Part shown: positions 3,090-19,328 of the stretch, piece by piece
Layout: the number at the start of each line of letters is the position of its first letter
Numbering within the stretch: position 1 is the stretch's first letter
Source: Promethearchaeota archaeon
GTDB taxonomy: Archaea; Asgardarchaeota; Lokiarchaeia; Sigynarchaeales; SOKP01
Direction: 5' to 3'
Length of the DNA: 25,922 nt
Assembly: GCA_019057975.1 (NCBI GenBank)
Contig: JAHLWJ010000025.1
Location: 1 to 25,922, forward strand
The notes under the pieces: model-generated
What the model saw: the letters and a program-made list of their open reading frames with translations, nothing else
The model's database searches: none
Told to the model about the DNA's origin: nothing
Translations under genes and position numbers: made by a program

Positions 3090-3243
3090 GTAAAATTATT
3101 TTTAAGATTCTACTTATAAAAATGTAAAATATTATTAATTGAGCCAACTGTTTATTAATCGTTAATAGGATTTATTATAAAAGATTTAAAGTTGAAATTC
3201 AAAAGAAAATATTGATATTTAACAATATTTGAGGAAATTGAAG

Positions 3244-5706
3244 ATGAATAAACAATCTCAAAAATTAGAGAATATTGATAGACAGATTTTAACTGTTTTT
3301 ACGTTAATAAGAGCAAGGGAGTTTAACAAAGCATTATCAATAGTTAACGATATCTTAAATGAAAAAGCAACCCAAATGAACTTAACCCAAAAATTTGGAG
3401 CAAGAGTAGCAAGATTATTAGCACTAATGGGCTTAAAAAAGTATGATCAAGTTATTGGAGAAATTAAGCTTTCTGAACAAATTATAAACCAAATGGATAA
3501 TAGTAATAAAGAAAATCCCCTTGTAAAAGATGGAATCGGCAGACTATTTTCTATAAAAGGCGCCTATCAATCTGCTCAAGGGGATCTTGAAAATGCAATA
3601 GTTAATTATAATCGTAGCATAGCGATTTATGAAACTTTGAACAATAAAAAATCCATGTATTACCAGTTTGATGCAATTGGTTGGATCAAACGAGCTCAAG
3701 GCAAATTGGGTGAGACACTGAATTATTTCCATAAAATGTTAAAGCTTGCTGAAGAAATGCATGATGAAAGGTATATCGCACGGGCAAAATATTCAATAGC
3801 ATTTGCCAATTTCTATAAAGGAGACTTAGATCAAGCAACAGAATATGCTCAAGAGTGTTTAGCACTTTATGAAAGGCTGAAAAATTTTAGAGGGCTTTCA
3901 GCTGTGTATTCTATTTTCGGATCAATTTATCGTGGAAAAGGTGAATTCGATAAAAGTTTAGAATATTATCATAAAGTATTGACTATAATCAATGAAAATT
4001 TAGATATTCAAAAGGGGGTGATACATGCTTATTGCTATGCTCTTAGAAATATTGGTTGGATATACTATTACAAAAATAAAATAAAAAAATCAATTGAATA
4101 CCTTAGAGAAGCAGTAAAAGTACATGAATCTTTATGTAAATATAATAATACTATATTTGATTACGATCTTATTATGTTTCATTTATTACTGATTCTTTCA
4201 GCCATAGAAATTGATGATAATCAACAAATTGAGAATTCTATGGAGGAGCTTTCTAGAATTGCACGGAAATGGTCTTGGACTGATTATTTCAGGAAATTTG
4301 GTAAGGCTTTAATATTGAAAAATAAACAACGAGCGAAATATCGATTTCAAGCTCAACAAATTTTTGAAGAAATACTTGAAAAAAAATTCGATTATCAAAT
4401 CGAATTCATGATCCAGACAAATCTGTGTGATCTATTATTAGAAGAGTTAAAATATTCTGGAGAAGAAGAAACACTTTTAGAAATTCAAGGTTTACTTAAT
4501 AGAATATCTGATCTCGCTAATAATCAACGTTCTATTACCACTTTAATAACATTATATTCTCTCCAAGCAAAATTAGCTTTAATTGAGGGAAATGCTGAAC
4601 TTTCAAATGAATTATTGACTAAAGCTCTCACTATTGCTGAAAATAAAGGATTGGAATTGATTTCAAAAAAATTAACGGTTCAACAAAATCAACTTTTCAA
4701 TCAATTAGAGGAATGGAAAGCATTTTTTATTCAGAATTCAAAATTACAAGAGAAAATGGAGATTTTAAATCTAAAAGAGTATGTAACAGAAGCCATAAGT
4801 GAGGTTTTGGAGAAAAAATTCAAAACTGAAAAGAAATATAATATAATCTATAAAGATTTACTCAAAGAATACCCTAAAATCCAAAGAGAGGAATGTAGAG
4901 TTGGAATTGCTCAAATAGGACTCTCCGAAACTGGAGATATTTTAAATGAATTCTTTGAATTAAAGGGTTCAGGACTATTAGGGATTAAAGAAAATAAAAT
5001 TGAGATAGTTAGATCCATTGTAAAAAATTTGATAGAAAGAGCTAATTCTAATGGAATAAATATTCTCATCTTTCCAGAAATGACAATTGACTTAAATTAT
5101 GATATCTTTTTAGAGGAGATATCAACTCTAGCTAAAAATTATGGAATGTACATTATTCCAGGCTCTTATCATGATCAAACTACAAAACGAAATTTAAGCG
5201 TGGTAATAGGTCCAGAGGGAGTTCTTTGGGAACAAGAAAAACATATACCTGCCGTTATACATTTTGGGGGAAAAAGATTTGAAGAAATGATTGATACAAG
5301 CTCCCTTCCTCGCAAAACAATCGTCTGTAATACTGAATTTGGAAGAGTAGCCATTGTAATATGTCGAGATTTCTTAGACATGGATCTTAGAGTAGAATTA
5401 AAAAATTTTGAACCCCCTGTAGACATCATTATTAATCCCGCCTTTACACCAGTTACGGCTGATTTTAAAGCTGCACATTTTGACGCTCGAAGATCTATAT
5501 ATAGCTATTGTTTCTTTGCGAATATTGCTGAATATGGTGAATCTCATATATATACACCAGAAAAAGATCGTACTGAAAGATTGATACCTACAAAAGAAGA
5601 AGGTTTGATATATAAAGATATAGATCTCTTCAAATTACGCTCAGAGCGTAAAAAATGGGAAAAGGAACAAAAGAAAGAGAGACTATTTATACAAAGTACA
5701 AGATAG
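3244..5706 (+). CDS. TPR-repeat protein with C-terminal nitrilase-family amidohydrolase domain
   Basis: About 820 residues. Residues roughly 10-480 are helical TPR repeats (for example GDLENAIVNYNRSIAIYE, GDLDQATEYAQECLALYE, GEFDKSLEYYHKVLTI). The C-terminal part, from about residue 550, is a carbon-nitrogen hydrolase (nitrilase superfamily) domain. Its full catalytic triad is visible: Glu in IFPEMTID (codon at 5077), Lys in EQEKHIPAV (5239) and Cys in VICRDFLD (5362). Such enzymes hydrolyse amides or nitriles, or transfer acyl groups through a cysteine thioester. The substrate is unknown, and the TPR part may recruit a protein partner. I chose the ATG at 3244 because GAGG lies 9 nt upstream; a TTG at 3229 would add five residues. 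The gene sits alone between the two acs 3' ends. Confidence 0.85.
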   Translation: MNKQSQKLENIDRQILTVFTLIRAREFNKALSIVNDILNEKATQMNLTQKFGARVARLLALMGLKKYDQVIGEIKLSEQIINQMDNSNKENPLVKDGIGRLFSIKGAYQSAQGDLENAIVNYNRSIAIYETLNNKKSMYYQFDAIGWIKRAQGKLGETLNYFHKMLKLAEEMHDERYIARAKYSIAFANFYKGDLDQATEYAQECLALYERLKNFRGLSAVYSIFGSIYRGKGEFDKSLEYYHKVLTIINENLDIQKGVIHAYCYALRNIGWIYYYKNKIKKSIEYLREAVKVHESLCKYNNTIFDYDLIMFHLLLILSAIEIDDNQQIENSMEELSRIARKWSWTDYFRKFGKALILKNKQRAKYRFQAQQIFEEILEKKFDYQIEFMIQTNLCDLLLEELKYSGEEETLLEIQGLLNRISDLANNQRSITTLITLYSLQAKLALIEGNAELSNELLTKALTIAENKGLELISKKLTVQQNQLFNQLEEWKAFFIQNSKLQEKMEILNLKEYVTEAISEVLEKKFKTEKKYNIIYKDLLKEYPKIQREECRVGIAQIGLSETGDILNEFFELKGSGLLGIKENKIEIVRSIVKNLIERANSNGINILIFPEMTIDLNYDIFLEEISTLAKNYGMYIIPGSYHDQTTKRNLSVVIGPEGVLWEQEKHIPAVIHFGGKRFEEMIDTSSLPRKTIVCNTEFGRVAIVICRDFLDMDLRVELKNFEPPVDIIINPAFTPVTADFKAAHFDARRSIYSYCFFANIAEYGESHIYTPEKDRTERLIPTKEEGLIYKDIDLFKLRSERKKWEKEQKKERLFIQSTR

Positions 5707-11286: not shown

Positions 11287-12018
11287 ATGGAGTTTAAAGC
11301 TTTTTCCAACAGGATCGATGAATGGGACCAAAAGATAATAGTAAAATACAATGGTATTGGTGGGAAGCCAGTCATTTATATTCTGAAGTTTTTATCTTTC
11401 TTTGGAAGAGAAACATTATGGATTTTTTTAATCGCTTTTTATTTATTTATTTGGTATGATCCTTTTTTACTTGCCAACTTGACTGCCACTTTTTTAACCG
11501 GGTTATTATTAATTGTAGCAATTAAAAAAACTGTTAATAGAGCAAGACCATTTGATAAGTTAGGAAAAGGCAAACTCAAAGTTCTCGAAAAAAAACCGAG
11601 TTCAAAAAGTTTTCCTTCTTGGCACTCGTATAATATTGTCGCATATGGATTATTGATTGGGTTCTTCTTTTTAAAATCACCCACTATGACAATTATAATG
11701 CAAATACTAGCAGTAATAGTATCATTTTCAAGGATTCAGTTAGGAGTCCATTATCCTTCTGATGTAATATTCGGTTATTTTATTGGTATAATTGGGTTCT
11801 TACTTTCAGTTCTTATTGTTGCTCCTATATTTCAAATAATTTTTGAAAATTTTGAACAATTTGCTCTACATACCATTGAATATCGACAATTTAATTCAAT
11901 GATTTTTGAAAACGTTTGGTATCTTGTTTTATGGATCGTAATTTGTACAGCAATCCTTATATCTGCAACCTATAAAGATATTAAAGATAAATTTATAAAA
12001 AAAGAAATGAGAATTTAA
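11287..12018 (+). CDS. PAP2-family membrane phosphatase
   Basis: A 243-residue membrane protein with about six hydrophobic helices and the three PAP2 signature motifs. These are K-x6-RP (Lys80 to Pro88, KKTVNRARP), PSxH (PSWH, 110-113) and SR-x5-H-x3-D (SRIQLGVHYPSD, 148-159). It is expected to dephosphorylate a lipid phosphate or an isoprenoid pyrophosphate at the membrane; in archaea phosphatidate-like or polyprenol pyrophosphate substrates are plausible. The usual Gly of PSGH is Trp here, while the catalytic His is kept. It follows the PHP gene by 23 bp. Its stop codon overlaps the stop of the convergent GTPase gene by 4 bp. Confidence 0.88.
   Translation: MEFKAFSNRIDEWDQKIIVKYNGIGGKPVIYILKFLSFFGRETLWIFLIAFYLFIWYDPFLLANLTATFLTGLLLIVAIKKTVNRARPFDKLGKGKLKVLEKKPSSKSFPSWHSYNIVAYGLLIGFFFLKSPTMTIIMQILAVIVSFSRIQLGVHYPSDVIFGYFIGIIGFLLSVLIVAPIFQIIFENFEQFALHTIEYRQFNSMIFENVWYLVLWIVICTAILISATYKDIKDKFIKKEMRI
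11997..12003 (-). terminator. T-tract after the GTPase gene, inside PAP2
   Basis: Seven A residues on the plus strand give U7 in the GTPase transcript, about 12 nt past its stop codon. The tract lies within the last codons of the convergent PAP2 gene. Confidence 0.35.
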
Positions 12019-13271
12019 AGATCTAAGCTCTTTTTTTTACTAAATAAATCTTTTAACTCATTAAGAACTGTCAATCTTGAGTTCTCTCCAGCTCTACGGG
12101 AACTTAAAGAGGGATTCGATATTTCAAGTGGTTGTCCACTTTGTGCTGCTTGAAATGCACTCGATTCTATCGCACGGAGACGAATATCGAGATCATTAAG
12201 TTGTGTAGAGATGCTCTCAGATAGACGAATGACCGCATTAAGAGTTTCTTCCAATGTTTTTCCTAGACCCTCTACCTTCTTTACAGTTGGATCTGAAAGA
12301 GAATAACCTGCATTCATTAAATTTTTTATATATTTCGCAAATTGAGGTTCGCGAGAAATTAAAGAATATATGGAAGTTAAATAAATTTCAATTTCAAAAT
12401 CATAACCCTTGCTTTTAAGAAGCTCATCTATATTGTCTTTCAAGAGTTCAATATTAAGGAGTATTTTAGGCTCTCCTTTTAAATCAGGATCATATTTATG
12501 AAGGAATAATAGCACATAAGGGGCTTCTTCTAACAATACCAGAGAGTCAAGTATTTTATCAAGATAATCTATAGATTCATCAAATCTCTCGGGATTTTGC
12601 ACATCTATAACATATATTAGTAAGTCTAATTGAATAAAGTATTGTTCGGGATTGTTTAAATACCTCTCACGATATTCTTCTTGACCTCCAAGGTCCCAGA
12701 TGAAGAGATTCAAGTTGGAGGTCCCAAATTTCATCCTAACTACTCCCTTTGTTGGATGAGTGGCAATCATATCACTTATCCCTAAGCGCCCTCCAAATTT
12801 CGATAATAAGGACGTTTTACCTGCTGCATCTAGACCAGCAACTAAAACTTTCTGTGCTTCTGGTTCAATAGCTTCTGTTTCCTCAGTAAGGCTATTTATG
12901 AGTGTACTAATCGTAACTGCTTTTCTTAATTTTTTTTCTAAGGTGGGATATTTATTTTTTAGTTCCCCAATTTTTTCCTTTAAATTTTCTGTTAATTCAA
13001 GAGATTCTTCAGATTCTTCAGATTCTTCTAATATGGATAAACTTTCAAATGGATCGTCTTTGTTGAGTTTTAGTGTTTCTTTAATTTTGGATATTTCAAA
13101 TAGATTTTTTATTATAGTTGATTCTTCTTTATCTATAAATTTGTAGGATTGAATTGATAATTTTAAAATGTCATCGATCTTTTCTAATTTCTCAATTTTT
13201 ACAGATTTGGGGTCTAAAAATTTGGAAATGACTTTTATTATATCTGAACTTTCAGAGGGCATAGTAAACAT
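12015..13271 (-). CDS. Long Arf/Rag-like small GTPase with N-terminal helical extension
   Basis: A 418-residue protein. Residues about 140-325 are a Ras-superfamily G domain: P-loop GLDAAGKT (146-153), switch-I HPTKG (Thr174), WDLGGQ (192-197, the Arf form of DxxG) and HKYD (258-261) for guanine recognition. HKxD in place of NKxD is typical of Rag/Gtr GTPases. Before the G domain lie about 135 residues, helical and acidic, with a SEESEESLE repeat near 84-92. After it comes a roughly 80-residue tail predicted to be coiled coil (LNDLDIRLRAIE) then basic. It should bind and probably hydrolyse GTP in the cytosol. Start: ATG at 13269-13271, with a second in-frame ATG three codons later; neither has a clear ribosome site. 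Classical members are about 180 residues, so both extensions are unusual. Confidence 0.88.
   Translation of the reverse strand: MFTMPSESSDIIKVISKFLDPKSVKIEKLEKIDDILKLSIQSYKFIDKEESTIIKNLFEISKIKETLKLNKDDPFESLSILEESEESEESLELTENLKEKIGELKNKYPTLEKKLRKAVTISTLINSLTEETEAIEPEAQKVLVAGLDAAGKTSLLSKFGGRLGISDMIATHPTKGVVRMKFGTSNLNLFIWDLGGQEEYRERYLNNPEQYFIQLDLLIYVIDVQNPERFDESIDYLDKILDSLVLLEEAPYVLLFLHKYDPDLKGEPKILLNIELLKDNIDELLKSKGYDFEIEIYLTSIYSLISREPQFAKYIKNLMNAGYSLSDPTVKKVEGLGKTLEETLNAVIRLSESISTQLNDLDIRLRAIESSAFQAAQSGQPLEISNPSLSSRRAGENSRLTVLNELKDLFSKKKSLDL
12031..12038 (+). terminator. T-tract after PAP2, inside the GTPase gene
   Basis: Eight T residues lie 12 bp downstream of the PAP2 stop codon. This is a likely archaeal transcription end and it sits within the last codons (the KKK of SKKKSLDL) of the convergent GTPase gene. 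Confidence 0.45.
13003..13029. repeat. Three tandem 9-bp repeats in the GTPase gene
   Basis: GATTCTTCA is repeated three times, the last copy ending in T. It encodes the acidic SEE-rich segment before the G domain. It is a short slip-prone repeat that keeps the reading frame. Confidence 0.75.
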
Positions 13272-13467
13272 TGATTCTTTTAATATTAATAGGTTAATTT
13301 CGTTTTTATTGTTATTTATTAAACTTTTAAGATACTAATTAAAAAGGCTTAGATTTAAATTTTCACAACTTAGTTTTAAATAGATTAAACTTAAATATTT
13401 AATAGAGTTTGTATTTTATACTAAAAATGAAAAATTCCAAATTCATTTTTTATTATCATAAGTGATT

Positions 13468-14391
13468 ATGCCGTCTCATTTTGAAGATAATGATTTCTTT
13501 GAAGATAGTGGGGAGGAAGGTCCATCTTGTTGCGATAATCCTAAAATTAGTGAAGAAGATGGATTTTATGTCTGTTTAAATTGTGGTTTTGTATATTCTA
13601 GAATTCTTGACGATAGTCCTCGTAGAGCTTTTACTCAAGAAGAAATTCAGAAGAGGAAAAGTAGTGAAAGAGTTTACAGCCCAATAGGACCCAGAACAAT
13701 TATCAGAGGATCAAGAGACGCTAGAGGCACTTTACTAAGCCCAAAATACAAGTCTAAGTTTAACAGATTAGCTAAAATTCATAGGTCTTTAACCACTAGT
13801 TATGAAAGAAATCTATGGATTGCTTTACCTAATTTACAACGCTTACAAAAAAGATTAGGAATTCCAGATGCCGTAGCAGAGGATGCACTTAGAATATATA
13901 CCCAAACCGTAAAAAAGAAATTGACTATGGGAAGAAGTATAGATACGTTATTATCAGCATCTATTTTTGCTGCTTTAAGAGTTCATGGAATACCTAGAAC
14001 TTCTGAAGAAATAGCGAAAATCGCACAAATTCCTAAAAAAAAAGTAATTAAAAGTTATCGTTTAATTCTCATGGAAGTTTTGCCAAAACTCGGAATGAAA
14101 GTACAACATTTTTCAGCTGATAGATATGTTGATAAATTTAATGAAGAACTAAAGCTTTCAATGCAGTGTAGAAATATAGCTGTAAAATTAATTGAAAAGG
14201 CAAGAGATAGTGGATTCAATTCAGCAGGTAAAGACCCGAAAGGAATTGCTGCTGCTTCTATCTATATAGCATCAAAAATATGTAGTGAAAATAGAACGCA
14301 GAAAGAAATATCGCAGCTCGCGAAAGTTACAGAAGTGACACTTCGTATGAGAGTAAAGGATTTACAAAAATACGCAAATATAGTTGACTGA
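13468..14391 (+). CDS. tfb: Transcription initiation factor TFB (TFIIB homologue)
   Basis: A general transcription factor that bridges TBP-bound promoters and RNA polymerase. From the ATG at 13468 it has 307 residues. Parts in order: a zinc-ribbon region with SCCDNP (Cys21, Cys22) and CLNCG (Cys36, Cys39); a B-reader-like segment (RAFTQEEIQKRKSSERVYSP); and two cyclin folds, the first ending FAALRVHGIPRTSEEIAKIA, the second holding AAASIYIASKI and ending TQKEISQLAKVTEVTLR. A GTG at 13462 would add two residues. The first CxxC of the ribbon is changed to adjacent cysteines (CCDN), so one zinc ligand is displaced or missing. Asgard genomes often have several TFBs; this may be a specialised paralogue. 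It lies between two divergent-facing neighbours and appears monocistronic. Confidence 0.93.
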   Translation: MPSHFEDNDFFEDSGEEGPSCCDNPKISEEDGFYVCLNCGFVYSRILDDSPRRAFTQEEIQKRKSSERVYSPIGPRTIIRGSRDARGTLLSPKYKSKFNRLAKIHRSLTTSYERNLWIALPNLQRLQKRLGIPDAVAEDALRIYTQTVKKKLTMGRSIDTLLSASIFAALRVHGIPRTSEEIAKIAQIPKKKVIKSYRLILMEVLPKLGMKVQHFSADRYVDKFNEELKLSMQCRNIAVKLIEKARDSGFNSAGKDPKGIAAASIYIASKICSENRTQKEISQLAKVTEVTLRMRVKDLQKYANIVD

Positions 14392-14418
14392 TTCTGTTAA
14401 AGCTATCATATTTCAATT

Positions 14419-17400
14419 TTAAATATCTGTTAACTGTATTTCTTCTTCAAATAAAGGTAAGATTTCTAACATTCCTTTAATTTTTGGTAAATAAGTTTCC
14501 AAGTTATATTCTTTAACATCAATGATAAAAAGGATTAACATAATATCATATGTATCTTCTACCAATTTTTTATTGACACCCAGTGTATTTAGAAACTGAT
14601 TAATACTTTTTTTGATGATAGAATAAGGTTCTTTGATTTTTAATAAACATAATCCTTGTAAAAGGATAATGAGAGAACTAGTTCTAAGATCTCTTCTTTT
14701 AGAAGCCATTGTTTCAGCTAATTTATAATATTTAGTAGCTGCATCTTTAAAAGTCTGTGCTTCCAATAATGTAAAAATAGCTTTGTAAAAAATTCTTTTT
14801 GTTGCTTTTCGTTTATTAAGGAAATCTTCTTTCTCTCGTCGAGTGTCTCCTATTTTTGACTCTATTTTTCCATATCTTTGATCTATTTCTATTGCTTGCC
14901 TTCTTGTTAATTCTTTTTTGGGCTCTTCAACTTTTGTAATTTGTTCATCAACTTCTTCAAGTTCTCCCTCTTCTCTATAACCTTCACCGAAATATTCATC
15001 GAGAAATTTCTTTTCTTCATCAAATAAAGGAAGATAATTCATAAAAGACAACGCTTCATTAAATTTTAGTTCATCTTGAAACTTATTCGCTTGAACCATG
15101 TATTCAACTAAGGTGACTGGAAAAGTTTCAATACCCAAGCCTGACAAACTCTGTTTTGTCTTCTCTAATAATTCTCTTACATCCTTTACCCTATTTTCTT
15201 TAAATAATAATAAACTCACTATTGCTAATGATACACCCGCTAAGCTATATTTTGTAATTTTGTTTAATTCAACTATAGTTTCCTTATACGAGTTAATTGC
15301 TTCATCATACTCTTCTTCAGCAATATAAGCTAAAGCTTTTCTAAAATATCTTGTTCTTCTTGCAGTTCTTTCTCTAAGTTCCTTCTTTCGATCTAAACGA
15401 CGATATTCTCTAGCTTTACTTTCAATAATTGAGAGATTTTCCTCCAATTCTGCTCCTTCTCGGGATTCTCTTGCAATCTCCGAACGAATTGCACTCTTTT
15501 CTGCTTCAAGTTTATCAATTATTTTATGAATCTCTTTTTTATATACTTTATTCTCAATTCTGTCATTATATACATGAGCATTAGCTAAATCATCTTCTTC
15601 AATATATATTTCAGCAAATTTCTTGAAGATTTTATCATAGTTTATTTTTAAGATTTCTTCTTTTTCTAAATAGGCGTCTGAGACACTAATTGCTTTTTTT
15701 ACTAACTCATTTGCTTTTCTAATTCCTGAAAGATTCTCTTCAGCTCGAAGTAGATTCAATCCCTCATGTTTAATAATTTTAATATAAACTAAACTAATCT
15801 GGTTGGATTCGTCATAAAACAAGTGATTACGATATATTCTGTTAGAATCTTCCAAAATTCTTGCGATTCTTTCAAAATTCTTCAATTTTTCAATTTCTTT
15901 CAATCTGTCAAGGAAAACTGGAAATACTCTAATTAAGTACTTCTTTTTCATTTCTATTGATAATTCACTAAAGGTGATGAAAAATTCTTCAAAAATATCA
16001 CCTTCTAAGAGAATATCTAAAGATTTTGTAAGAATTTGATCTCTTATATCTTCCATTCCTATCTTTTTTAGATAATCCGCCTGATCTATTAAGTACTTTG
16101 CTCCTTTAAGGTATTTGCCTTGTTTAATGAACTCATTGGCAGCCTCAATTTTCTTTTTATTCATATCAGCAATAATATCCAACTCAGCGTCGACAAATAC
16201 AGTTAAAAAATCTACTCCTTTCTTAATAATTTCCTCCAGTTCCTTTTTCAATGAGGTGTTATATATATCCTCAATTTCACCACTTAATTTGGTCAATTCT
16301 TGTTTTATCATCAAAGAGTCTAGCTTATTAATAAGTGTGGTTGCTATTCTAAAGTTATTTTTTTCTAAGAAAAGGTTAATTAAGATTTTTAAAGTTGCAT
16401 CTAAATTGGTTTTTTTTACATGATACGATTCCCACATGTTTTCAATTTCATCATACCTATATCTTGCAGCGTGAATTTCTTTAACATTAACTTGATGTTT
16501 GAAGATATAAATTAAAATTTTCGTTAATTTAATGGTTAATTCTTCTAATTCATCTGAAAGTGCTTCTCTTTGATACTTATATATCGCATTATACAGTTGT
16601 TCTCTTGCTAATTCAAATCTATTAGTTTCTACTAGGAATTCTGCGGCATTGCCAATTTTACCTGTAACTTCCTTTAATATTGTCTGAGCTTCTTGATGTG
16701 ACAAGCTTTCAAGAATTCTAAATGCATTCTCAACCTTACAAGCCGATATCCAAGAAGTTATTGCTAATCTAAAGGCTTCATCAATTATTTTTTTATCTAA
16801 CAACTCAATACTAGACCATTGTCCTGCTCTTTCGTATTGTTTTGCAGCAGTTTCGTATTCATGTTTATTAAAATAGAAAGTACCTTCTCTTATCATTGCA
16901 TCAGCATACAGCTTCTTAAAATTAACAGACTTTATTGGGTCTATATTTTCTATAATTTGACTTGCTTCTAAGTATAGATTAATTTTTGAATATAGATATG
17001 CCGCTTGATCAGTTATAATAAAGTACTCCTCTTTATTGTAAATTTCTGCAATCAAAGCTGCTTTTCTTACTGCTTGAGCGGCATAATAATAATTTTTATC
17101 CTTAAAATAAACATTAGCCATTTGAATGAATATTGGAAATCTCATCCAAGCGTTCTCAATATTTAACGGAGTCTCCCCATTAATCATTGCTAAACAGAGT
17201 GATTGAAGTACTTGATGAAAATCTTTAGGATTTAGATTAGCAAAGGCTTCGAGACTAGGATAATTAACCCATACATTTGTTAAGAGCTCATTCACAGATA
17301 TTGGGAGAATACCATTTTGATCATAAAAAATTACTATTGTAGGAATATCACGTTTGACTGAAAAAATATCTGGTAAGACCATTTCTAGTAATTCATATTC

Positions 17401-17643
17401 TTCTTTAATTAGAGGATTTAAAAAGTAAATAATCCCATCCACAATCGGAATAATGTCATCTAAATCTGCTGATATACTTGTAATCGCATCAATTTCTAAA
17501 TCGCAGGTATCTTCTAAGATTTTCACTTCTTTATACCATTCAAAATATGTCTCTTTATCTTCTCCGGGTTCACCAAACGCTCTTGAAGCGTAAAAATGAA
17601 TTGTTTCTGGATCTCCTAGAATTAATACCTTAAAAAAAAACAT
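14419..17643 (-). CDS. Giant GTPase-like domain plus TPR/alpha-solenoid protein
   Basis: A 1074-residue protein. Residues 1-155 resemble a Ras-superfamily fold: first strand KVLILGDPE, later strands GIIYFLNP (70-77) and PTIVIFYDQNG (101-111), and a final segment ANLNPKDFHQVLQSL (144-158) like the G5 region and last helix. However, GDPETIHF replaces the GxxxxGK[S/T] P-loop and no DxxG or NKxD remains, so nucleotide binding is doubtful. From about 165 to the end it is helical with TPR/SNAP-like pairs (YYYAAQAVRKAALIAE, YETAAKQYERAG, YDEAINSYKETIVEL), and a charged coiled-coil segment near 700-760. A GGAGG-type ribosome site (17655-17660) lies 11 nt before the ATG. The layout recalls coat or tethering components. 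The solenoid is well supported; the GTPase kinship is inferred by eye. Confidence 0.72.
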   Translation of the reverse strand: MFFFKVLILGDPETIHFYASRAFGEPGEDKETYFEWYKEVKILEDTCDLEIDAITSISADLDDIIPIVDGIIYFLNPLIKEEYELLEMVLPDIFSVKRDIPTIVIFYDQNGILPISVNELLTNVWVNYPSLEAFANLNPKDFHQVLQSLCLAMINGETPLNIENAWMRFPIFIQMANVYFKDKNYYYAAQAVRKAALIAEIYNKEEYFIITDQAAYLYSKINLYLEASQIIENIDPIKSVNFKKLYADAMIREGTFYFNKHEYETAAKQYERAGQWSSIELLDKKIIDEAFRLAITSWISACKVENAFRILESLSHQEAQTILKEVTGKIGNAAEFLVETNRFELAREQLYNAIYKYQREALSDELEELTIKLTKILIYIFKHQVNVKEIHAARYRYDEIENMWESYHVKKTNLDATLKILINLFLEKNNFRIATTLINKLDSLMIKQELTKLSGEIEDIYNTSLKKELEEIIKKGVDFLTVFVDAELDIIADMNKKKIEAANEFIKQGKYLKGAKYLIDQADYLKKIGMEDIRDQILTKSLDILLEGDIFEEFFITFSELSIEMKKKYLIRVFPVFLDRLKEIEKLKNFERIARILEDSNRIYRNHLFYDESNQISLVYIKIIKHEGLNLLRAEENLSGIRKANELVKKAISVSDAYLEKEEILKINYDKIFKKFAEIYIEEDDLANAHVYNDRIENKVYKKEIHKIIDKLEAEKSAIRSEIARESREGAELEENLSIIESKAREYRRLDRKKELRERTARRTRYFRKALAYIAEEEYDEAINSYKETIVELNKITKYSLAGVSLAIVSLLLFKENRVKDVRELLEKTKQSLSGLGIETFPVTLVEYMVQANKFQDELKFNEALSFMNYLPLFDEEKKFLDEYFGEGYREEGELEEVDEQITKVEEPKKELTRRQAIEIDQRYGKIESKIGDTRREKEDFLNKRKATKRIFYKAIFTLLEAQTFKDAATKYYKLAETMASKRRDLRTSSLIILLQGLCLLKIKEPYSIIKKSINQFLNTLGVNKKLVEDTYDIMLILFIIDVKEYNLETYLPKIKGMLEILPLFEEEIQLTDI

Positions 17644-17948: not shown

Positions 17949-18611
17949 TTGAATTACTTCGAAAGAAATTATGATATTGTTAAACAACGAATGATTCAGC
18001 AGATGGAAAATTCAATTGTTTTAGGAAGAAATCTTATTGATACTGAATTGGATACAGGAATTTTGAACTTTATAATTAAGCCCATTATTAAAACCTTCTA
18101 TGATTATTGGTCAAAGAAGGATGTAAAAGAAGGGACGCTAAAACAAATTCAAGTTAGTTTAGAATCCGGCAAAGAATTATTAATGAATGGTAATGATGAT
18201 CATAATTTTAACAGGATTGTTGAGGAAAATTTTCCAAAGTATCTTGATGCCGATCAAGCATCACGCAACTGTTCACACTCGCATAAGAATTATGAAAGGT
18301 TAATACAAGTAGCGAGAGAAACGTTTATAAATTATCTGAAAGAAGTAGTGAAATTTTTAGACGTAAAAGAGGATGTAGAAGATTACGGTGATTTATGTCG
18401 TATTGCATTTAGCACAAAAGAGATCGCTGAACAAAATTTAATGAAACAATTGGAATTTACAGAAAGAGGTATAACAATAATAGAGGAGGACCCCTCCATC
18501 CTTAAAGTACCTGTAGGACGAAAGATAATTGTGAAAACATTAAGGAGAGGCTTTGAGTCTACCAAAATAGAGTTTATAAAATCGTTAAATGAAACATATA
18601 ATCAAAAATAA
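17949..18611 (+). CDS. Unrecognised helical protein, first of a tandem paralogue pair
   Basis: A 220-residue protein of no family I recognise, clearly homologous over its full length to the next gene, with about half of the residues identical by eye. Shared features are ERNY near the N-terminus, LIDxELDTGxLN followed by KPI, YWSxKD, a C-x3-H-x-NY motif near residue 115 (CSHSHKNY), and a conserved C-terminal SILKVPVG segment. It is mostly helical, charged and cytosolic, with no membrane span. The start is a TTG at 17949-17951. Two facts support it: GGAG lies exactly 8 nt upstream, as in the paralogue, and the N-termini then align residue for residue. The two genes are 57 bp apart in the same direction. 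Confidence 0.75.
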   Translation: MNYFERNYDIVKQRMIQQMENSIVLGRNLIDTELDTGILNFIIKPIIKTFYDYWSKKDVKEGTLKQIQVSLESGKELLMNGNDDHNFNRIVEENFPKYLDADQASRNCSHSHKNYERLIQVARETFINYLKEVVKFLDVKEDVEDYGDLCRIAFSTKEIAEQNLMKQLEFTERGITIIEEDPSILKVPVGRKIIVKTLRRGFESTKIEFIKSLNETYNQK

Positions 18612-18668: not shown

Positions 18669-19328
18669 ATGGATGTTATCGAGAGAAACTATAGAATCTT
18701 AGAAAAAAGAATGATTGAACAAATGGATATTTCTCTTAATTTTGGGAAGGCCCTAATTGATTCAGAGTTGGATACAGGGGTCTTGAATATTTTGGTGAAG
18801 CCTATCGTTAAATCTTTTTACAAATATTGGAGCGACAAAGATGCTAAAGTAGGGACATTAGAACAAATAAGAGTTACACTTGGTAGTGCTAAAGATTTAA
18901 TTACAAATGGAGATGGCTCAAAAGAACATTTTGATAGGATTATTAATAGAAAATTTCCAATATATTTAGAGAATGATCAAACAGATAGACAATGTAAGAA
19001 GGATCACCGCAACTATAAAAAATTAAAGGAAGTAACAAAAAATTGCTTTATAACTCAGATTGAAGAGAGTGTTTTATTTTTGAAGGTTGATGAGAATATT
19101 AAAGATTATAGTGAATTATCAAGAGCAACTTTTAAAACAAAAGAAAGAGCGTATCAAGCTCTAATACGTCAATTGGATTATAATGAACAAGGAATATCAA
19201 TTGTGGAGAGTGATTCATCTATATTGAAAGTGCCGGTAGGGAAGGAAATCATTTTAACTGTCCTCAGAAAGGGTTTTGAGTTAACCAAAACACAACTAAT
19301 TGAAGAACTTGATGAGATTTTTAATTAA
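18669..19328 (+). CDS. Unrecognised helical protein, second of a tandem paralogue pair
   Basis: A 219-residue paralogue of the preceding gene. It keeps ERNY, LIDSELDTGVLN, KPIVKSFYKYWS, the C-x3-H-x-NY motif (CKKDHRNY), LSRATFKTKERA and SILKVPVGKEI. The constancy of the Cys and His through otherwise variable sequence suggests a metal site or structural role, but this is inference. The start is the ATG at 18669 with a well-placed GGAG. Many changes between the copies and full-length conservation argue for an old duplication with both copies kept under selection. No neighbour gives a strong hint to function: the following gene is a membrane protein and begins 49 bp later. Confidence 0.78.
   Translation: MDVIERNYRILEKRMIEQMDISLNFGKALIDSELDTGVLNILVKPIVKSFYKYWSDKDAKVGTLEQIRVTLGSAKDLITNGDGSKEHFDRIINRKFPIYLENDQTDRQCKKDHRNYKKLKEVTKNCFITQIEESVLFLKVDENIKDYSELSRATFKTKERAYQALIRQLDYNEQGISIVESDSSILKVPVGKEIILTVLRKGFELTKTQLIEELDEIFN

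Follow-up and report, generated by a model that had tools for sequence, protein, structure and literature searches.

A predicted pseudo-GTPase domain fused to a TPR-like helical solenoid in an order of Lokiarchaeia

Inactive GTPase domains that serve as scaffolds are known mainly from eukaryotes. We describe a gene at positions 14419-17643 of contig JAHLWJ010000025.1 (assembly GCA_019057975.1, Promethearchaeota archaeon, Lokiarchaeia), whose product is predicted to join such a domain (the head) to a long helical solenoid; "the window" denotes the whole stretch of 25,922 nucleotides analysed. The proteins p190RhoGAP are eukaryotic RhoGAPs not known to carry a solenoid like that of tetratricopeptide repeat (TPR) proteins, and the dynein light intermediate chain belongs to a eukaryotic motor and is not known to have a fused solenoid. 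The p190RhoGAP domains pG1 and pG2 are, like our head, Ras-like parts of a large multidomain protein with degraded G motifs; PMC5593906 assigns them to class (i) of pseudoGTPases, which do not bind nucleotide, lists the fungal dynein light intermediate chain in the same class, and cites a paper whose title presents the Ras-like domain of that chain as a bridge between motor and cargo-binding region. The nearest in design appears to be CENP-M with CENP-I in the human kinetochore HIKM complex, a resemblance of design only: according to PMC4080450, CENP-M has a small-GTPase fold incapable of GTP binding, and its authors speculate that it sits near the concave face of the CENP-I helical solenoid. 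These are two separate polypeptides of a eukaryotic kinetochore, whereas the archaeal protein has head and solenoid in one chain; distant CENP-M relatives keep a P-loop (same source), whereas none of the archaeal members scanned does. The Rab-like and Rag-like GTPases of Asgard archaea share with the head the fold and a detectable sequence homology but keep the G motifs it lacks, and PMC10933270 describes Asgard GTPase fusions to roadblock or longin domains.

An earlier note on this DNA gave the coordinates of the gene correctly, without its strand, and claimed that the first 155 residues or so follow the strand order of a small GTPase while lacking the P-loop, DxxG and NKxD. The strand is minus, and the gene is an intact open frame encoding 1074 residues. 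Structure prediction with fold search, which the note had proposed as a check, gave a Ras/Rab fold for the head with high confidence. The Ras order of elements is common to the full-length model and to residues 1-166 folded alone: β1 2-9, α1 12-23, β2 33-42, β3 45-54, α2 61-67, β4 70-75, α3 80-94, β5 102-106, α4 117-127, β6 131-135 and α5 139-155. There are thus six strands with a tight β2-β3 hairpin, which would be antiparallel, judging from its two-residue turn and the fold matches; the small-GTPase fold is in both cases a prediction.

The loss of the motifs extends to the relatives scanned. The scan covered 144 proteins (this one, 120 of the 236 relatives found and 23 more; some lack the N-terminus). 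Within residues 1-60 none has GxxxxGK[ST] or GK[ST], and none has the G4 motif [NT]KxD at residues 86-135. A D..G string at residues 46-72 occurs in three, as a DLDG that opens the next helix and does not end β3. In the four most distant members, from f4 (f1 to f4 being the families of the order discussed below), GxxxxGK[ST] is found nowhere in the protein. The claimed absences therefore hold, and neither a receiver fold nor a homologue with a working P-loop, the two outcomes that the note had named as telling against its reading, was found, the latter among the family members scanned. With a predicted small-GTPase fold and at least one G motif missing, the head qualifies as a pseudoGTPase, and it lacks both the G1 and the G4 motif of active Ras-superfamily members. 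Its P-loop site is shortened to ILGDPETIHF, and residues 10-16 show weaker conservation than the head overall (mean majority share 0.65 versus 0.78). The strong conservation within f1 lies off the GTPase consensus, in the switch I region (23-39) and at the G4 and G5 positions, where Y107, D108, G111 and P114 (G4) and E132 and N136 (G5) are invariant in 48 f1 sequences. This conservation along the rim of the old nucleotide pocket suggests that in f1 the rim became a binding surface.

The ancestry of the head can be followed apart from any structure model. A profile built from 20 diverse heads and run over 227 Asgard genomes recovers its own family at E <= 3e-18 and lists about 70 places beyond it, the best at E 1.8e-9 per genome, or about 4e-7 once corrected for 227 genomes; one listed place, a 40-residue piece in G158, is a family member after all. 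The 12 matches inspected read as small GTPases, ten of them with GxxxxGK[ST] in frame, and the motif is present in all six inspected matches from outside the order (L188, L191, L192, L193, L195, L196). The best match aligns end to end, holds the P-loop, D..G and NKxD, and also matches PF00025; proteins with intact motifs are thus significant matches of the head profile. HHalign against Asgard Arf-family GTPases gives 68% with all heads and 90% with f2 heads. In a search of 177,635 PDB sequences, seven of the eight entries with E <= 10 were septins, HRas or KRas, the best at E 0.01 and none strong alone; the whole-family profile matched no solved structure at E <= 0.01. The sequence evidence, which is independent of the model, supports the descent of the head from a Ras/Rab-like small GTPase. 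When standalone relatives of the head were sought, 23 proteins came up at E <= 1, mostly strongly related or marked partial, with no active GTPase among them. Two standalone small-GTPase-like frames were noticed in f1 genomes: L189 ~342-692 (G014), with GDREVGRRT and no D..G, and L198 ~331-840 (G141), with GDAGVGKMT and neither D..G nor [NT]KxD; from these, degenerate GTPases may be commoner in Lokiarchaeia.

Selection was compared by a Nei-Gojobori script between this protein and three relatives (L128, L129, L130). The ratio of nonsynonymous to synonymous substitution rates is 0.00, 0.013 and 0.075 over the head (residues 1-157), as compared with 0.295, 0.21 and 0.177 over the remainder; the three pairs share one sequence and are therefore non-independent, and 157 codons are few. 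By these ratios the solenoid is less strongly constrained than the head. Among the segments compared, conservation is highest at the junction (158-180), which suggests that the head packs tightly against the solenoid there.

From residue 162 onward the prediction is all-helical, with long helices at 444-507, 699-750 and 914-946. The earlier note called this part TPR/SNAP-like; a TPR-like solenoid is probable. The protein scores 21.6 bits against PF07719 (cut-off 27), which is below the Pfam threshold for TPR; several relatives carry precomputed PF07719 or PF00515, and helix pairs are predicted in the model. The Foldseek matches listed for the whole chain (E 1e-7 to 1e-5) include, besides further TPR proteins, chains from the complexes PAF, SKI and IFT-A. 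They are led by PAF and SKI chains, which we take to be CTR9 and SKI3, with a root-mean-square deviation (rmsd) above 40 Å over ~1000 columns; the IFT-A rows appear only amid other TPR-type rows. The long matches to solved TPR superhelices have an rmsd above 30 Å. Such large deviations point to TPR-like repeats in common and not to a common superhelix: CTR9, SKI3 and IFT-A subunits resemble the model in long TPR-like stretches, but they give no sequence match to the archaeal protein, their superhelices do not superpose on it, and they are not known to have a GTPase-like head. For SNAP, as for COPI and TRAPP, no chain was among the Foldseek matches listed and no sequence match was found, which falls short of exclusion. 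The modules at 699-886 and 914-1074 are homologous (HHalign probability 99.1%); a third lies between them in 17 of the 48 aligned sequences, in forms of ~1240 residues, and matches the other two at 98.1% and 96.7%.

The fusion is kept across an order. A whole-protein profile (E <= 1e-5) found the family in 69 of the 227 Asgard genomes, namely in 69 of the 79 genomes of the order (f1 58/65, f2 8/8, f3 1/1, f4 2/5) and in none of the 148 outside it; these counts were made on a list arranged by kinship, from whose end 138 genomes with no match are omitted. The head profile finds four of the five f4 genomes and misses the f2 genome G045, which held a C-terminal piece only. Seven f1 genomes have no match, six of them less than 85% complete and one 92% complete. 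No genome of the locus listing has two full-length copies; stop-containing remnants (G001:C4:215863-216213 and G008:C26:15246-15722) each accompany a full copy elsewhere. One relative, NEF87_003838, is encoded on a contig of 6.0 Mb from Candidatus Lokiarchaeum ossiferum, which is cultured, and another in Candidatus Harpocratesius. A few close relatives are labelled Thorarchaeota, Hodarchaeota, Hermodarchaeota or Odinarchaeota (e.g., P0004, P0006, P0077, P0080); we take these labels as wrong or loose, because all 48 named loci are titled Lokiarchaeota or Lokiarchaeia and no genome outside the order matches.

An artefact or a broken gene is ruled out by the open frame, the full-length relatives in dozens of genomes and the purifying selection. 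The start site lies within about ten residues of the homologues' starts (24 of the 48 aligned rows compared), and a P-loop lost through a wrongly placed start is ruled out as well, since the relatives begin at most ~10 residues away and also lack it. NCBIfam gave no match for the protein.

That this Lokiarchaeia protein consists of a pseudoGTPase head, presumably of class (i), and a helical solenoid is supported by the homology, the motif loss, the retention of the fusion and the models, and to this extent the interpretation of the earlier note stands; its functional guesses, considered below, are conjectural. We believe it reasonably probable that the protein acts as a constitutive scaffold on which the head offers a docking surface. 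From the computed fold (itself predicted), ancestry, motif loss, conservation and selection we infer that the head, with the P-loop and the other G motifs gone, would neither bind nor hydrolyse GTP and would keep to a single conformation. Switch I and the rim of the old pocket would then form a constant protein-binding surface, and the head would be packed, via the junction PLNIENAWMRFP, on the first TPR-like helices of the solenoid. Further subunits would be held by the solenoid together with the tandem C-terminal modules, so that the protein may work like CENP-M with CENP-I, in a single chain.

Several points weigh against this proposal. The structures of the head and of the whole protein are predictions, and the predicted template modelling score of the full model is 0.36, so that the model does not fix where the head sits relative to the solenoid. 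Across the four families (20 heads) D69 and P77 are the only invariant residues, while F4, D60, G70, I71, P101, W125, E132, L149 and I154 come close to invariance; the pocket rim is conserved within f1, and one surface common to the order is not established. The conserved loops could instead hold an unusual ligand. On the side of ancestry, the head profile matches only 2 of 29 Arf-family control domains, so that the nearest kin look Rab-like rather than Arf-like; HHalign against Arf-family GTPases is weak with f1 heads alone (13%) or f4 heads alone (16%), and in single-sequence Pfam searches two of the 20 heads match Gtr1_RagA, at an E of 0.024 that falls short of the cut-off. The genome G010, a single contig, holds only a 137-residue piece of the gene (G010:C1:1562115-1562525). 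The partner proteins are candidates only.

No prior description of an Asgard pseudo-GTPase was found in the open-access papers searched, as judged by titles, abstract starts and term counts, and "pseudo" is absent from the main text of the Asgard GTPase paper PMC10933270. Surveys of Asgard GTPases start from relatives of active small GTPases (e.g., 74 in MK-D1; PMC10933270), so they can easily miss a family that has no G motifs. Since the pseudo-GTPase is kept in most genomes of the order and its head is more constrained than the rest, it suggests that GTPase folds have a structural use in these archaea, as they have in eukaryotes. It is tempting to go further, although we hold this to be a tentative and rather doubtful extension: a whole order of Lokiarchaeia would rely on a scaffold made from a dead Rab-like GTPase, normally in one full-length copy per genome, at the centre of an undescribed complex that includes the 18669-19328 family and perhaps a Rag-like GTPase. 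If so, pseudo-GTPase scaffolding on helical solenoids, as known from eukaryotic kinetochores, arose also in Asgard archaea, out of their large GTPase repertoire. The question deserves a test in these archaea, our closest archaeal kin, because inactive-GTPase scaffolds are otherwise familiar mainly from eukaryotes; the L. ossiferum member brings nucleotide binding, partners and location within experimental reach.

Table 1. Parts of the gene and its neighbours in the window (aa, amino acids; ORF, open reading frame)
Feature	Position	Strand	Extent	Basis or remark
Pseudo-GTPase-solenoid coding sequence	14419..17643	-	1074 aa	ORF and translation
Predicted Ras/Rab-fold domain without G motifs	17173..17643	-	residues 1-157	
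Shortened remnant of P-loop site, GDPETIH	17596..17616	-	residues 10-16	alignments, per-residue majority shares
Junction PLNIENAWMRFPIFIQMAN	17104..17172	-	residues 158-180	11/23 positions invariant, 48 f1 sequences
Predicted all-helical TPR-like solenoid with 64-residue helix (444-507)	15550..17103	-	residues 181-698	model, Foldseek
C-terminal module 1, long helix and TPR-like helices, LPLFDEE near end	14986..15549	-	residues 699-886	HHalign
C-terminal module 2, LPLFEEE near end	14422..14904	-	residues 914-1074	alignment, HHalign
Rag/Arf-like GTPase, intact P-loop GLDAAGKTS, candidate partner	12015..13271	-		PF04670 1.1e-19, PF00025 1.5e-19
Probable transcription factor B (TFB), named by eye, convergent with gene	13462..14391	+		translation
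Divergent neighbour, family without Pfam match	17949..18611	+		paralogue of 18669-19328
Paralogue of 17949-18611	18669..19328	+		near gene in f1, three f2 loci, one f3 locus

Gene order was counted in 48 named loci, many of them cut by contig ends. In f1 the gene lies inside a long conserved block with TFB (43/48), the 18669-19328 family (43/48), a membrane protein (41/48), the GTPase of 12015-13271 (39/48) and, labelled by eye, PAP2 (31/48), PHP (30/48) and CoA-transferase (28/48) genes. The most serious rival to the scaffold proposal, which we still consider rather unlikely, is that the head forms a heterodimer of the Rag/Gtr style with an active GTPase and regulates it, the GTPase at 12015-13271 being the natural candidate and the one that the earlier note had in mind as a partner. 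Its relatives are indeed near the gene in most of the named loci, Rag-like GTPases are the second largest GTPase class of MK-D1 according to PMC10933270, and an Arf-like GTPase is encoded at a distance of a few kb in the f2 locus L067 (14008-14700, PF00025 E 1e-5). However, this synteny is part of a long block in which TFB is commoner still and which includes metabolic genes; no relative of the GTPase was found in the f2 loci L066-L068 or the f4 loci L059-L062, and in L142 the flank is present with no GTPase match. Seven genomes searched have 16-99 Arf-type matches each, so a nearby GTPase is unsurprising.

The 18669-19328 family fares somewhat better as a candidate partner on gene order, which proves neither. 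In the three flanked f2 loci (L066-L068) both it and the membrane protein stay within a few kb of the gene; of the two, it alone is near the gene in the f3 locus L063, and neither was found in the four f4 loci (L059-L062). It often occurs as tandem duplicates beside the gene. It is present in 76 of the 227 genomes, four of them outside the order, against 69 for our family, so the two are not exclusively co-distributed; both are near-universal in the order, and their co-distribution is therefore no proof of coupling. Neither 17949-18611 nor 18669-19328 has a Pfam match above the cut-off, and the latter has no NCBIfam match.

Two further readings seem to us about equally improbable, and more so than the pairing. 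The earlier note proposed a membrane-traffic coat or tether: a Ras-fold head on a solenoid is reminiscent of such assemblies, and IFT-A chains are among the whole-chain Foldseek matches listed. Yet PAF and SKI chains head the same list, with deviations that indicate only TPR-like repeats, none of the neighbouring genes inspected was recognised as one of membrane traffic, and nothing found links the protein to membranes. Alternatively, the head may still bind a nucleotide or another small ligand through a non-canonical pocket and make the protein a sensor, as the f1 conservation of the loops at the G4 and G5 positions would allow; against this, the site of the P-loop is shortened and more weakly conserved, none of the known phosphate-binding motifs was seen, and most residues at the G4 and G5 positions vary in f2-f4. 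The pairing, coat and sensor readings overlap with the scaffold proposal. A degenerate response-regulator receiver without GTPase kinship, which would likewise alternate β and α elements, has a negligible chance and is rejected at the level of prediction by the six strands with their tight β2-β3 hairpin in the models, where a receiver has a parallel sheet of five, by HHalign (probability <= 4.4% against receivers) and by the head profile (0 of 21 Asgard receiver domains matched).

Some observations concern the surroundings. In L148 three tandem relatives of the 12015-13271 GTPase (12965-17077) lie beside TFB and the pseudo-GTPase gene. In two f2 loci, a protein of 775 or 628 residues is encoded downstream on the same strand, ~90 or 20 bases after the gene (L066 3700-6027 and L067 5029-6915); a gelsolin-like reading of its N-terminus made by eye was dropped, as Pfam gives no gelsolin, nothing at all for L066, and for L067 the histidine-rich-protein PF05403 (probably composition) and SRP_SPB at 0.0038. 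The f4 genes are followed by a frame resembling a xylose-isomerase-like TIM barrel in L059 (4607-5473, PF01261 1.2e-33) and, by eye, in L060 (3320-4186), L061 (1920-2792) and L062 (2035-2907). Near the f4 gene of L061 there is an OST3/OST6 match (1276-1782, PF04756 2.4e-8), with similar frames by eye in L059, L060 and L062. A roadblock protein at 94-486 of the window, taken with the Rag/Arf-like GTPase, fits an Asgard archaeon, and at 3229-5706 a TPR solenoid (TPR_MalT 2.3e-18) is fused to a carbon-nitrogen hydrolase domain (1.9e-7).
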